The notes beneath the pieces are model-generated. The model did not search any database and had not been told where the DNA came from. It worked only from the letters and a program-made list of their open reading frames with translations. Shown in pieces: positions 36,331-44,428 of a stretch of DNA of 54,846 nt (positions are counted from its first letter, which is position 1; every line of letters begins with the position of its first letter). Position numbers and translations under genes: made by a program. This DNA is from Geobacteraceae bacterium (GTDB lineage Bacteria > Desulfobacterota > Desulfuromonadia > Geobacterales > Geobacteraceae). The stretch is taken from positions 1-54,846 of the forward strand of contig JAMXLF010000064.1 of the NCBI GenBank assembly GCA_024281055.1, in the 5' to 3' direction.

Positions 36331-36412
36331 GATCGGGACAGGAAGCTTACACCGGTGCGCTCTTTAATAGCGGAACCACCAGTGAATATATGACATAAGG
36401 AGGATTTTCCGT

Positions 36413-38513: not shown

Positions 38514-39968
38514 ATGCCAAAGCATAATGACCACAAGCAATTTATCCAGACCGGCTCAGAGGCTATTCTTGAAGCTATTGGAGATGCCATATCTATCCAG
38601 GACAAGAATCTTAAGATTATCTACCAGAACAAGGCCCATGTCAGCATGATGGGAAATCATCTTGGCGAATATTGCTATACCGCCTACCAAAGCAAGCATG
38701 AACCATGTCATGGCTGTCACCTGCTGGAATCTTTCAAGGACGGCAAGGCTCATAGACGGCAGACTAGTGGGGAAATTACAGGGTGTGGGAAAATTCATGT
38801 CGAGATCGTCTCTACCCCGCTAAGAGATGCTCAAGGGGAAATAATCGGCGGCATTGAATCGGTCCGGGATGTGACCGAGCGGGTTATGATGGAAGAAAAG
38901 CTGACTAAGCAATTAGCCGCTATCGAGACATCCATGGACGGGATAGCCATACTGAACAGCGAAGGAGAGTATGTTTATCTGAATCAGGCCCATGCTGCAG
39001 TTTATGGCTATAATGCGCCTGAGGAGTTGATCGGCAGGATGTGGCATTGTCTTTACGACTCCGAAGAATTGGAGCGATTCCAAAAGGAGATCATGCCCCT
39101 TTTAATGGAAAAGGGATCCTGGCGGGGGGAGGCGACCGGCATGAGGAATGACGGCACCTTTTTCCCCCAGGAGCTTTCATTGACTGTTACGGAAGATAAC
39201 GGGATTGTCTGTGTGGTGCGCGATGTTTCCGACAGGAAGGAATCGGAGAGCAGGCTGAAAATACTTAATCTTGACCTGGAAAAGAGGGCCAGGGATCTCA
39301 TGATTGTCAACCAAGAGTTGGAATCCTTTAGCTACACTGTTTCACACGACCTGCGGAAGCCGCTAACGGTTATAAAAGGGTACTGCAACATGATACAGGA
39401 GTTATGCGGACACGACATAAAGAACCAGTGTCGTGAATTTCTGCAGGCAATTTGCGACGGGGCGGACAGCATGAACCGACTCATCGACACCTTGCTCACA
39501 TTCTCCCGTCTCTCGCGCACTGAAATTAGCAGAAAAACTATCGACCTCAGCACGATTGCTAATACTGTGGCTGCAGAACTGGCTTTGACCGACACCGGAC
39601 GCCGGGTCACGTTCCGGATCGCCGAATCGATAACTGCCAATGCAGATACGAATCTGCTGCGCGTGGTTCTGGAAAACCTCCTCGGAAACGCTTGGAAATA
39701 CACCAGCAACACGAAGGAGGCGGTTATTGAATTTGGAGCCATGGAAGCAGAAGGAAGACAGACATATTTTGTCCGGGACAACGGAGTCGGCTTCGACATG
39801 ACTCAAGCGGATAAACTGTTCACGCCTTTCCAGCGCCTCCACGGAACGGATGCTGAAGGGCACGGCATTGGCCTGGCCACAGTGGAGCGGATCGTCAAGC
39901 GCCATGGCGGGAATGTGTGGGCAGAGGGGGAACCGGGGAAAGGAGCAACTTTCTACTTCACTCTCTGA
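38514..39968 (+). CDS. Soluble PAS-PAS histidine kinase
   Basis: 484 aa with no membrane segment. PAS 1 (about 15-130) carries CYTAYQSKHEPCHGCH, a Cys pattern that includes a CxxCH, possibly a metal or heme site but in a cytoplasmic protein. PAS 2 (about 135-255) precedes a HisKA domain with SYTVSHDLRKPL and a HATPase domain with NLLGNAWKYT, DNGVGFD and GHGIGLAT. The family resembles phytochrome-type kinases (SHDLRKPL box). ATG 38514 follows AGGA; a TTG at 38475 is less likely. No response regulator is adjacent, so it is an orphan. Confidence 0.92.
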   Translation: MPKHNDHKQFIQTGSEAILEAIGDAISIQDKNLKIIYQNKAHVSMMGNHLGEYCYTAYQSKHEPCHGCHLLESFKDGKAHRRQTSGEITGCGKIHVEIVSTPLRDAQGEIIGGIESVRDVTERVMMEEKLTKQLAAIETSMDGIAILNSEGEYVYLNQAHAAVYGYNAPEELIGRMWHCLYDSEELERFQKEIMPLLMEKGSWRGEATGMRNDGTFFPQELSLTVTEDNGIVCVVRDVSDRKESESRLKILNLDLEKRARDLMIVNQELESFSYTVSHDLRKPLTVIKGYCNMIQELCGHDIKNQCREFLQAICDGADSMNRLIDTLLTFSRLSRTEISRKTIDLSTIANTVAAELALTDTGRRVTFRIAESITANADTNLLRVVLENLLGNAWKYTSNTKEAVIEFGAMEAEGRQTYFVRDNGVGFDMTQADKLFTPFQRLHGTDAEGHGIGLATVERIVKRHGGNVWAEGEPGKGATFYFTL

Positions 39969-40010
39969 TTACTCCGAATCGTGTATTGACGATGACACGA
40001 GGAGGATGCT

Positions 40011-40059
40011 AAAAAAAAAATTTTTAAGCATTTGACAAACCTAATCCTGGCGATAGAAT
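40011..40059 (+). promoter_or_regulatory. Strong sigma-70 promoter with UP-element-like A/T tract
   Basis: TTGACA (40032-40037), a 16-bp spacer and TAGAAT (40054-40059). A run of ten A then five T (40011-40025) lies just before the -35, like an UP element. No ORF with a ribosome binding site follows, yet a terminator lies 470 bp downstream. Confidence 0.75.
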
Positions 40060-40065
40060 GAACTC

Positions 40066-40530
40066 AAAAGCAGAACCGCTCTTTGATATTTGCTCTGGGA
40101 TATGCGTAAGAACGAACTTGAGGAACCTGTCGATACCCACTTTAGTGCAGCCTGGATAAAGACGTGGTGTGCAAGCCCTCTACCGAGAAGGACGCCTTAA
40201 ACGTTTTGTCGGGACATGCTGAAAAAGGACGGATGCTCGAATAGTCTACGGTATCCTGGAGCAGATATAATTGGCGCTGGTGAGAAAACGCGAAAGCGTA
40301 TTAGACCATCCGTCAGGCGCGTACCAACCGCTTGAAAAAGGGGAAACCGAAAGGTCAACCCGGATGTTGCGGCCGGAAATCCGAGCGTAACATCCGACAC
40401 CGACTAGGTAGCTACCGACGGATCGGGATAAAGCATCTCATCCAGCGCCAATTGCTTTTTGATGGGAAAAGATACCATGTGGGATATCAGATAAGAAGGG
40501 TTCGGCCAATCAGGCCGGGCCTTTTTTTGC
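40066..40530 (+). ncRNA. Candidate large structured non-coding RNA (~465 nt)
   Basis: No credible ORF exists here on either strand. Visible helices: GACGGATG (40228-40235) with CATCCGTC (40307-40314), stacked on GTCTA (40244-40248) with TAGAC (40302-40306); ACGC-GAAA-GCGT (40288-40299); ACC-GAAA-GGT (40346-40355); CGGATGTT (40361-40368) with AACATCCG (40389-40396) around a CGG/CCG inner stem; CCAC/GTGG near 40136-40167. A 12-bp exact complement AATTGGCGCTGG (40269-40280) and CCAGCGCCAATT (40442-40453) would form a pseudoknot with the first helix. Two GNRA tetraloops are a ribozyme or large-RNA hallmark. Alternatives are a decayed group II intron, or an omega-RNA or retron RNA without its protein. 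Bounded by the promoter at 40032 and the terminator at 40500. Confidence 0.6.
40500..40528 (+). terminator. Intrinsic terminator of the candidate RNA
   Basis: GGTTCGGCC and GGCCGGGCC pair over 9 bp (two G-U) around AATCA and are followed by T7. It is the clear 3' end for the unit starting at 40032. Confidence 0.85.
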
Positions 40531-40588: not shown

Positions 40589-41059
40589 CTATTTTTTCCT
40601 GACGAACTCCACTTGGTAGGTCTGCTTCCGGGCGGCGTGAAAGTAGGTGCCGGTGAAACTGTCGGTCTTCGGGTTGTAGAGCAGGTCATAGGTCGAACCG
40701 GAGTGGTTGGTGTCGCGCAACTCGACGAACAGCCTGATAGTTCCGTTGCTGCGAACCCGCAGGTCGGCGTGGGCGATGTTGATGCGGCGGGGATTGAAAT
40801 AGGACGCCCACACCCTGCCGTCTCCGCTGATATGCCTGAGATCGAGGATATAGCCACCGTCAGGCCGGACCCACCGCCCTTCGAGATGGTGGAAATCCGT
40901 CTGCCCTGAGGATGGCTCTGCCTTTGCCGTCTCCGCCATCGGCGGCGTGGTGCCGGCAATGAAGCAAAGGGCAAGCGCCAGCACGGGGATGAGAAAGCGC
41001 ATTTTCTTGCTGAGGAAGAAGGGGATTCTGGCAGCACTATTGCCGATGTCATTGGTCAT
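40589..41059 (-). CDS. Small exported hypothetical protein
   Basis: 156 aa. Residues 20-43 (MRFLIPVLALALCFIAG...) form a signal sequence, with an unusually long lead before it if the start is 41059. That start has GGAGG 8 nt upstream; a start at 41002 would give a standard signal peptide. The mature domain (about 55-156; GRWVRPDGGYILDLRHI, DLLYNPKTDSFTGTYFHA) is beta-rich, like a small lipocalin-like sandwich. No named family recognised. It lies 100 bp downstream of the antiporter gene. Confidence 0.7.
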   Translation of the reverse strand: MTNDIGNSAARIPFFLSKKMRFLIPVLALALCFIAGTTPPMAETAKAEPSSGQTDFHHLEGRWVRPDGGYILDLRHISGDGRVWASYFNPRRINIAHADLRVRSNGTIRLFVELRDTNHSGSTYDLLYNPKTDSFTGTYFHAARKQTYQVEFVRKK

Positions 41060-43241: not shown

Positions 43242-43553
43242 TCACCGCAGGAATTCCCTCCCAGCGCTGTCGTAACAGACATCCCCACCGAGGTCGAAGT
43301 CGGAAAAACAGCCGTAGCACTTCCCCTTGCAGGCGTAATAGAGCGCATTGCACTGTTGTGCGGCTCCTGCCGGAGAAAACACCATGACGTTGCCGAGGTA
43401 GGCTTCGTCATCCTTGTCACCCGTGTAGCAGGAAACGTTGATGTTCTCGTCGGGATGCGCAGGTCGTACAGAGGCGGCCGCCGCAACGAGAACAGCCGCG
43501 CCGAGGAATGCCGCCCTGAGCGCTATGCCGCGCTTGCGAGTCATGCTCTTCAT
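43242..43553 (-). CDS. Small exported Cys-rich protein, paralogue 1
   Basis: 103 aa. A signal peptide (about 1-33) is followed by a compact domain with a fixed Cys pattern: NVSCYTG, QQCNALYYACKGKCYGCFSD, VCYD. It matches the protein at 44126-44428 at most of these positions. Six Cys suggest three disulfides or metal binding in the periplasm. GGGAGGT precedes ATG 43553. No family name known to me; I have the impression that this type is common in Geobacter-like genomes. Confidence 0.75.
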   Translation of the reverse strand: MKSMTRKRGIALRAAFLGAAVLVAAAASVRPAHPDENINVSCYTGDKDDEAYLGNVMVFSPAGAAQQCNALYYACKGKCYGCFSDFDLGGDVCYDSAGREFLR

Positions 43554-43566
43554 GTGGGGTACCTCC

Positions 43567-44082
43567 CTATCTTCCCAGCTCCTGTCGTATCCGTTCCCTG
43601 CGCTCGATTCTTTCCGCCGGGGTTTCTGCAGGTGGCGGCGCAGAGGGCGGGGTGAGCTCAGGGCTCGGGACTGCACCGGCAGGTGGCGGAGCCACAACAG
43701 TGGGAGCGACGACAGTGGGAGCGACGACATTAGGAGCCACAACCGCCGGCTTTGGTGCGGCCAGCCCCTTGGCAGCCTGCTCCCTGACAGCTTGCTCTCT
43801 TATGGCCTGCTCTCTTATGGCCTGCTCTCTGGCGGCCTGTTCCCGCGCGGCCTGCTCCTTCGCGGCTTGTTCCTTGCTGGCTTGGCCTTTGGTTGCCTGG
43901 CTTTTTCCGGTCTGACCCTTGGCAGCCCGTCCTTTAGCTGCTTGGCCCCTGGCGGCCTGACCCTTGCTTGGTGTGGCCTTTCCCCTGGCCGGTTTTTCCG
44001 TCTTCTCCCTCGGCTCGGCGGCGAAGGAAAAGGGAACAGCGAACAACAATACCGCCATCAATGCTACTGCCGCTTTTCTCAT
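43567..44082 (-). CDS. Exported repetitive Ala/Lys/Gln-rich protein
   Basis: 171 aa. The signal peptide ends near FSFA-AEP (22). A Lys/Arg-rich repeat region (about 25-110) is made of 4-5 residue units such as KGQAA, REQAA and REQAI. A short VVAPTVVAP repeat and a Pro/Ala-rich part follow, with a charged helical end (ERIERRERIRQELG). ATG 44082 is preferred for its GGAGGT site. It is highly basic, so it may interact with cell-wall or nucleic acid polyanions. It sits between the two Cys-rich paralogues, 13 bp from one. Confidence 0.72.
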   Translation of the reverse strand: MRKAAVALMAVLLFAVPFSFAAEPREKTEKPARGKATPSKGQAARGQAAKGRAAKGQTGKSQATKGQASKEQAAKEQAAREQAAREQAIREQAIREQAVREQAAKGLAAPKPAVVAPNVVAPTVVAPTVVAPPPAGAVPSPELTPPSAPPPAETPAERIERRERIRQELGR

Positions 44083-44125: not shown

Positions 44126-44428
44126 TCACTTCTGAATTTTTCGCCCGTCATTGTCATAGCAGACCTGGAAGCCGTTGGGGTCGGTAAAACATCCCAGGCA
44201 TGCTCCCTGGCAGTCGTAGTAGAGCGAATTGCATCTCATGCCGGCATTCTGGGGAGACGTTACCGTAAGGCTGCCGATATAATTCCCCGGATCGAGATTT
44301 CCTTTGAAGCAGGAGACATTGACCCTCTCCCCCTGGACATCTTCCGGTTTTTCGCCCAGGGCGCAAGCCTGTCCCACGAAGCCGGCCGTGGCAGCGAGGA
44401 CAAAGAGGATGATGCCCCGGACTCCCAT
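44126..44428 (-). CDS. Small exported Cys-rich protein, paralogue 2
   Basis: 100 aa. A signal peptide (about 1-23) precedes NVSCFKG, MRCNSLYYDCQGACLGCFTD and VCYDNDGR, the same Cys order as the protein at 43242. The duplicated genes flank the repetitive protein on the same strand, so the three form one cluster. Ribosome binding is weak at the chosen ATG. Confidence 0.75.
   Translation of the reverse strand: MGVRGIILFVLAATAGFVGQACALGEKPEDVQGERVNVSCFKGNLDPGNYIGSLTVTSPQNAGMRCNSLYYDCQGACLGCFTDPNGFQVCYDNDGRKIQK

Follow-up and report, generated by a model that had tools for sequence, protein, structure and literature searches.

The closest described systems for the RNA gene considered here are the 6S (SsrS) RNA (Rfam RF00013), the CoRP RNA of Corynebacterium glutamicum, the ModT or raiA-motif RNA (RF03072) and the boxA-bearing leaders of rRNA transcripts. 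CoRP is described as a polymerase-associated RNA of about 500 nt, longer than the known 6S or Ms1 RNAs, which binds both the core enzyme and the holoenzyme (PMC11077062). Our RNA is likened to CoRP by its size and supposed role only, and it differs from CoRP in being a 6S RNA plus another module. ModT is described as a structured RNA of unclear molecular role that has its own promoter and occurs in more than 2,500 species, and its model contains two pseudoknots (PMC11706538), whereas the domain described below as X showed no clear one; unlike X, ModT comes from the Bacillota and Actinomycetota. The boxA element is stated to be both necessary and sufficient for recruiting the rRNA antitermination complex, and in 98% of cases the boxC of Enterobacteriaceae rRNA follows boxA by 18 or 19 nt (PMC10250234); the consensus given for boxA in the gamma-proteobacteria is GYTCTTTAANA (PMC5725501). 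As in such rRNA leaders, our locus has a boxA-like element near the start of the transcript, whose spacing to the 5' strand of a long-range helix is steady, but here it precedes a 6S RNA and not rRNA.

Organization of the locus and its 6S half

The locus lies in a stretch of 54,846 nt from a Geobacteraceae bacterium (assembly GCA_024281055.1, contig JAMXLF010000064.1), which is referred to as the window. The RNA gene stands between the gene for a PAS histidine kinase, ending at 39968, and an opposite-strand ORF (40589-41059) without a Pfam match, and it comprises the following features.

40010-40027, + strand: A/T tract seen in the sequence, putative UP element
40032-40059, + strand: promoter of the sigma-70 type, TTGACA-16-TAGAAT, 11 of 12 consensus positions
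40077-40088, + strand: boxA-like element CGCTCTTTGATA, 11 of 12 matches to TGYTCTTTRANA, putatively for antitermination
40089-40266, + strand: 6S-2 RNA, a diverged second 6S paralogue (RF00013, model R2, covariation)
40270-40452, + strand: X RNA, a new structured domain with P1, P1b, P2, P3, P4, P5 and P6 (model R1, covariation, fold z)
about 40495-40528, + strand: intrinsic terminator, hairpin and run of 7 T (predicted fold)

A preliminary description of this region had proposed an undescribed large structured RNA with its own promoter and terminator. The near-consensus promoter and the A/T tract in front of it are present as listed above. The 1.5 kb scanned contains three promoter-like sites, compared to 1.2 ± 1.3 in shuffled sequences, and a site scoring at least 9 was found in 41 of the 46 fused loci, usually 20-30 nt before 6S-2 (8.8% of shuffles). 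The terminator ending in seven T is seen as a hairpin in the predicted fold, but it was missed by a consensus terminator scan and also by our own rule, which found a terminator 3' of 23 of the 46 fused copies (1.0% of shuffles) and none behind the fused copy of the window. The strong folding that was claimed is borne out by a z score of -6.85 for the whole transcript (100 shuffles), the 3' half (X) alone giving -8.05, with none of 200 shuffles as good, and the 5' half alone -2.93, with one of 200 as good. The gene also lacks a believable ORF, as had been stated. Across 48 sequences of the 3' half no reading frame was free of stops in more than five rows, and of the 158 gaps relative to the window, 144 have lengths that break the reading frame; the 79-aa ORF of the window has a register that stays open for 35 codons in 19 of the 48 rows. 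The possibility of a hidden protein gene is ruled out by these stops and gap lengths.

The statement that the RNA fits none of the recognized classes (tmRNA, RNase P, 6S, SRP) did not hold for the 5' half, which is a 6S RNA, matching the whole RF00013 model (positions 1-187) at 50.9 bits, above the cut-off of 46.4. A wholly unknown RNA of 470 nt is thereby rejected. What stands of the original proposal concerns the 3' half, for which the Rfam search gave no known family; this half measures about 185 nt instead of 470 and is attached to a 6S RNA.

The model R2 was made from 28 X-linked 6S halves and gives the 6S-2 of the window, a training sequence, 139.7 bits. The scores of R1, R2 and the wider model R3 for the window and for many other rows are likewise not independent, because these are training sequences. 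In the 28 copies the covariation was 0.420, compared to 0.230 in shuffles, and 91.7% of cells were paired, as counted over 42 of the window's 46 model pairs after four seldom-paired ones had been dropped. The closing stem, central bulge and apical stem are kept by compensatory change; 6S-2 has the closing and internal stems, the central bulge and the apical stem of 6S RNA, which covary, but it forms a separate subfamily which has a boxA-like leader and usually X behind it.

A canonical 6S RNA is present elsewhere in the genome of the window (contig C6, 60.3 bits), and an RF00013 match was found in 46 of 48 genomes of the family. Scored with R2, the 31 canonical 6S copies gave 32.5-52.3 bits, whereas among the 48 copies no more than 10 nt away from X, 47 gave 73-161 bits, training copies included; the other copy (L152), which is cut at a contig end, gave 50.7 bits. 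Five 6S-2 copies without X (L013, L014, L018, L020 and L036) scored 129.6-144.6 bits. In a tree of 54 rows, which took 19 of the 31 canonical copies, these 19 were separated from 35 X-type rows by a branch supported at 100/100; as most of the other branches were weak, the tree is relied upon for this split alone. Judged from their sequences, the X-linked 6S-2 RNAs are thus a subfamily apart from the canonical 6S of the same genome, and the 6S half adds a new branch to a known kind of RNA. It also shows that two diverged 6S lineages can coexist in one genome. One published data set names the 6S gene GSUR0059 of G. sulfurreducens among the changed genes, and this gene may belong to either lineage (PMC10599522).

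Structure and covariation of the domain X

The fold of X begins with the closing helices P1 and P1b, followed by P2, P3, the P4 hairpin, P5 and then P6. Its elements in the window are as follows.

40270-40280, + strand: helix P1, 5' strand, pairs with 40442-40452 (11 bp), closing helix
40282-40285, + strand: helix P1b, 5' strand, pairs with 40436-40439, closing
40288-40299, + strand: hairpin P2, ACGC-GAAA-GCGT with a GNRA loop
40306-40314, + strand: helix P3, 5' strand, pairs with 40417-40426, C40424 bulged
40316-40332, + strand: hairpin P4 with a conserved loop; the pair 40318/40330 stands first of all in the covariation ranking
40335-40339, + strand: A-rich joint before P5, conserved and unpaired in the alignment
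40340-40346, + strand: helix P5, 5' strand, pairs with 40409-40416; absent from model R1 and tested apart
40361-40396, + strand: hairpin P6, variable; some copies have it reduced or lack it

X was aligned in 48 sequences, including that of the window. RNAalifold, given the MAFFT alignment alone, predicted 17 pairs; the fold was therefore extended manually, after which its pairs were counted. On this alignment 84.2% of 2050 cells were paired, compared to 74.1% in shuffles, and 33 of 44 pairs were changed on both sides. The covariation was 0.319, compared to 0.150 in 500 shuffles, none of which was as high, and it reached at most 0.098 when the partner strand was slid. Helix P5, counted apart on the same alignment, had a covariation of 0.406 compared to 0.164 (none of 500 shuffles). 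Fitting 52 sequences from two classes to model R1 gave a broader alignment, in which changes at both positions were seen for 48 of 51 pairs; in it P5 was weak past its first two pairs, with 70.5% of cells paired over the helix. The compensatory change over both alignments is strong and agrees with the covarying base pairs that were expected for a structured RNA. Additionally, in a covariation ranking that was blind to structure and based upon 81 sequences (alignment fitted to R1), the first 14 places were all taken by model pairs.

The preliminary description had also read an exact 12-bp long-range complement as a pseudoknot. This complement is the 11-bp closing helix P1 of X (40270 with 40452), which is nested, and as no clear pseudoknot was found among the top 60 of the structure-blind ranking, this part of the proposal is abandoned.

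The most conserved parts of X are largely unpaired, viz. the loop of P4, the A-rich joint after P4 and an A-rich stretch after P3 that ends in AAAG. Since P5 and P6 are reduced or missing in some copies, we regard P1 to P4 and their joints as the core of X. The X of the window, which is a training sequence of R1, is given 158.2 bits by this model. Weak copies with reduced P5 and P6 were seen at L160, L161 and L169, and that at L169, which keeps 25 of 35 pairs, stands behind a well-kept 6S-2 (161.4 bits by R2, as a training sequence). At three loci of another class (L141, L143 and L144) a run of T closely follows the 3' strand of P1, for which reason P1 may itself serve as a terminator stem in these copies.

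No family of Rfam 15 covers X at the gathering level. In the window, a search with E-values up to 5 gave two matches that reach into the ends of X, both far short of threshold, the best with 21.7 of the required 56.3 bits, and in two distant homologues, searched at E-values up to 10, only weak matches were seen, the best with 13.8 of 38.2 and 13.7 of 38.3 bits. RF03072 (ModT) gave no match in these same searches. A relic of a group II intron, an omega-RNA or a retron had been named as the main competing explanation. None of the families group II intron, HEARO, OLE, GOLLD, ROOL or retron RNA, as far as Rfam 15 includes them, is among the matches, X has no match in phage or plasmid records, and the flanking genes, as grouped by sequence, are varied; a relic of this kind was accordingly rejected. 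The same holds in essence for a degenerate piece of such an element that was captured behind a 6S gene, a reading which we consider very improbable. The occurrence of several copies in some genomes of the family (up to four matches, one of them weak and partial) and of an insertion between 6S-2 and X at L046 would agree with it, but the single copy per genome in the other class and the strong selection upon the base pairs of X, along with the missing Rfam, phage and plasmid matches, argue against it. The open-licence literature, including those parts of PMC2864571, PMC8632094 and PMC11124144 that are available, yielded no description of X or of a 6S RNA joined to another RNA. Probably, therefore, X is an RNA class that has no known relatives by these tools, and an earlier description in other papers is conceivable.

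Distribution of X and its linkage to 6S-2 and tRNA-Sec

Model R1 detected X in 47 of the 48 genomes of the family, in 74 of 141 genomes of the order and in 91 of 277 genomes of the window's class, where 36 of 82 genera have it. As X was undetected in the other 186 of these 277 genomes by the same model, it is not essential to the whole class. In a sample of the phylum (Desulfobacterota) it was found in 16 of 395 genomes by R1, and R3 found it in 19 of 395 in a sample drawn likewise. Another class (around G467) has X in 39 of 63 genomes, with one copy in each. Stricter filters were applied whenever more than 40 genomes were searched in one run, which makes these counts lower bounds. G392 has X by R3 at 91.0 bits, although it is not a training sequence and was missed by R1. 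A minimal X without P5 and P6 (52.4 bits) is present in G370, one of the 19 genomes found by R3, from a family outside both classes. The weak phylum matches in G435 and G587, which were unseen with R3, and in G508 (partial, 22.7 bits) were not counted as X.

A scan of named genomes for the X motif found 16 contigs, nine of them from Geomonas species and one from Citrifermentans bremense; the others come from Geobacter sp., Geobacteraceae and a deltaproteobacterium. All 16, having been chosen by the X motif, are given an X by R1, and R2 finds 6S-2 directly before it in 15, the remaining one (L128) being cut at the contig end. The window's genome itself has three copies of X, viz. the one described here and those on contigs C23 and C33. 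The C23 copy, which is 74% identical over 386 bases of the query, is also placed behind a 6S-type RNA. The C33 copy (L140:2543-2732, - strand) is weaker and solitary, has no 6S match, has lost P2 as aligned and keeps 35 of 49 pairs; perhaps it is decaying.

With R2 at E-values up to 0.1, a 6S-2 match, in some cases partial, was found upstream of X on the same strand within 300 nt at 61 of the 81 X loci. The distance was at most 10 nt in 48 of the 81, 11-100 nt in 3 and 101-300 nt in 10, and 20 had no match. By RF00013 alone, a 6S RNA lies directly upstream of 31 of 81 family X matches (the two weakest of 83 rows were omitted). The gap between the two models is -6 to 9 nt in the 48 closely linked loci, and the closing stems of 6S-2 and X therefore stand nearly end to end. 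As this linker is short and steady, the main rival to the interpretation proposed below is a permanently fused molecule, in which X would be an extra domain of a 6S-type RNA: the 465-nt molecule would stay whole, 6S-2 holding the polymerase while X brings in a second factor or touches another surface of the polymerase, much like CoRP, whose reported length and binding of core and holoenzyme (PMC11077062) would be in keeping with such a role. The absence of X from all 31 canonical 6S loci is also consistent with it. We nevertheless regard a permanent domain as rather unlikely, since X occurs without a detectable adjoining 6S-2 and 6S-2 without X, both kinds being present in the genus g8 besides fused copies, and since, in the other class, the 6S-like matches seen (at 9 of 22 loci) are 82-350 nt upstream and X often adjoins tRNA-Sec.

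The separation of the two RNAs was seen in several sets of loci. By R2 no 6S-2 adjoins X in 9 of 47 family loci, although one of these, L052, where the leader motif is found 194 nt upstream, perhaps conceals a diverged 6S-2, and no X was found at the five X-less 6S-2 loci named above. In G030, G031 and G033 the sole X found and the 6S-2 found sit at different places. The 6S-2 matches in the 9 further loci of the other class are weak or partial, and R2 finds none by X in the other 13 of these 22. The solitary copies of X at L041 and L054 still have the leader, whose boxA-like element stands 15-16 nt in front of X. As 6S-2 and X are separable and solitary copies keep the leader, X is considered to be a unit of its own.

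Of the 39 X-bearing genomes of the other class, 26 have a tRNA-Sec downstream of X and on its strand, the distance being within 20 nt in 5 and within 150 nt in 21; two of these 26 tRNA-Sec matches score under 50 bits. Rfam's lower cut-off for tRNA-Sec was avoided, because weak matches were obtained in all 14 control genomes. Ten of the 39 X-bearing genomes have no tRNA-Sec of at least 55 bits, and a dependence of X upon selenocysteine is rejected for this reason. Ten genomes of this class with tRNA-Sec have no R1 match; these include G392, in which tRNA-Sec lies downstream of X and a 6S-2-like match of 30.4 bits upstream. In the window's class, no tRNA-Sec was found near any of 57 scanned loci, one of which (L036) has 6S-2 only.

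These neighbours bear upon a further reading, according to which X would be a ligand-sensing aptamer or an attenuator for the adjoining RNA gene (tRNA-Sec in one class), with P1 and its U-run acting as a terminator. The conserved unpaired joints around a junction are riboswitch-like, a U-run is found behind P1 in some copies, and in 5 of the 39 genomes the X match ends no more than 13 nt before tRNA-Sec. Against this, the X of the window is followed only by a terminator, the flanking genes differ between genomes, and tRNA-Sec is missing both from the scanned loci of the window's class and, at 55 bits or more, from the ten X-bearing genomes; we consider this reading improbable, more so than a permanent fusion. 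When the 159 flanking ORFs of the 81 loci were grouped by sequence, 91 remained single and the largest group had 12 members, all downstream and on the opposite strand. With flanking genes so varied and no constant set of genes downstream, X is also not a leader (riboswitch or cis-regulatory element) of flanking protein genes.

Two unusual arrangements were noted before X. At L046 about 190 bp (2810-2999) between 6S-2 and X have ACTAATTGG at both ends and resemble a small insertion element. At L150, L151, L153-L156 and L158 a module of about 130-190 nt, which R2 does not report as 6S, precedes X; by eye its end strands resemble the closing stem of 6S-2, and in five of these seven loci (not L154 and L156) a 6S-2 match is found further upstream.

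The boxA-like leader and a proposed joint production of two RNAs

In a motif scan of the 240 nt before X, 45 of the 81 loci contained NTCTYTGA, compared to 1.5 expected. Leaders were also scored against TGYTCTTTRANA over 59 nt around the 5' end at 49 of the 62 loci with an R2 match, and the other 13 were looked at apart. All 49 leaders contain a match of at least 9 of 12 (19.6% of shuffles). In five of them the best match is inside the 6S RNA itself and boxA is absent from the leader; in the remaining 44 a match of 9-12 precedes 6S-2, with 43 scoring 10-12 and 41 standing 11-13 nt before 6S-2. The first base of the window's element is 12 nt before the start of 6S-2, as in 29 of the 49 loci. 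Its GCTCTTTGATA is one base off the published GYTCTTTAANA, which is a gamma-proteobacterial consensus and may not be that of the host.

Among the 13 further loci, five have a good boxA 8-12 nt before the 6S-2 match, and L158 and L162 have one whose position agrees with their partial 6S-2 match. Five loci of the other class have none at the usual place, L145-L147 and L149 scoring at most 8 and L148 scoring 10 at a distance of 29 nt, and L152, at a contig edge, offers no leader for this test. At L150, L151, L153 and L155, where 6S-2 is 213-288 nt before X, the leader of 6S-2 has a boxA of 11 of 12. By comparison, none of the 31 canonical 6S leaders reaches 10, and 7 of 31 reach 9, which is about the shuffle rate (0.213). 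A score of at least 9 was found for 8 of 19 solitary X copies and for 3 of 5 copies of 6S-2 without X. The leader of L177 carries TGCTCTTTAACA, which we take to be the boxA of E. coli rRNA.

The two conserved and structured RNA halves, the distinct 6S subfamily, the separate occurrence of its members and of X, and the steady boxA-like sequence are the observations from which our interpretation starts. It holds that a gene consisting of promoter, boxA, 6S-2, X and terminator makes two RNAs together, a 6S-type regulator of polymerase and an independent structured RNA X, probably cleaved off; we give this reading about an even chance of being correct. In such a scheme a single promoter would produce an untranslated transcript of about 465 nt, with a short boxA-like leader, 6S-2, X and an intrinsic terminator. 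The boxA would recruit NusB/NusE and other Nus factors, and, by analogy with rRNA, the polymerase assisted by them may cross the long untranslated stretch without termination by Rho, allowing the long-range stem of 6S-2 to close. As a second 6S RNA, 6S-2 would mimic an open promoter and occupy the sigma-70 polymerase. X would be a separate functional RNA, probably freed from 6S-2 by cleavage in the short linker and acting in trans with a protein or ligand partner of its own, and its production along with 6S-2 would tie the amount of X to this brake upon the polymerase. The gap of -6 to 9 nt in 48 of the 81 loci counts against the joint production of two RNAs in so far as it also fits a lasting covalent fusion.

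Of the character of X itself we are more confident. It seems likely that X represents a new class of structured, probably trans-acting RNA, whose own function is older than its fusion to 6S-2 and which is made, along with a polymerase-binding RNA, by a gene assisted by boxA and Nus factors; its place between a 6S-2-like RNA and tRNA-Sec in the second class would then reflect an ancient cluster of stable-RNA genes. Being folded and conserved, with copies in 47 of 48 genomes of one family and in 39 of 63 of another class, X is a candidate for a basic RNA device of a new kind. The distinct 6S subfamily and its boxA-like leader raise the question of whether a 6S-type RNA may carry, or be accompanied by, a second working RNA, and the leader also that of whether these bacteria use Nus factors for RNAs besides rRNA.

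Two minor observations were made elsewhere in the window. A second boxA-like site, CGCTCTTTAATA, is present at 36358-36369 (+ strand), about 45 bases before a gene of the OmpA family, and may be due to chance. Lastly, two small cysteine-bearing proteins without a Pfam match, which appear alike by eye, are encoded at 43242-43742 and 44126-44428, both on the - strand.
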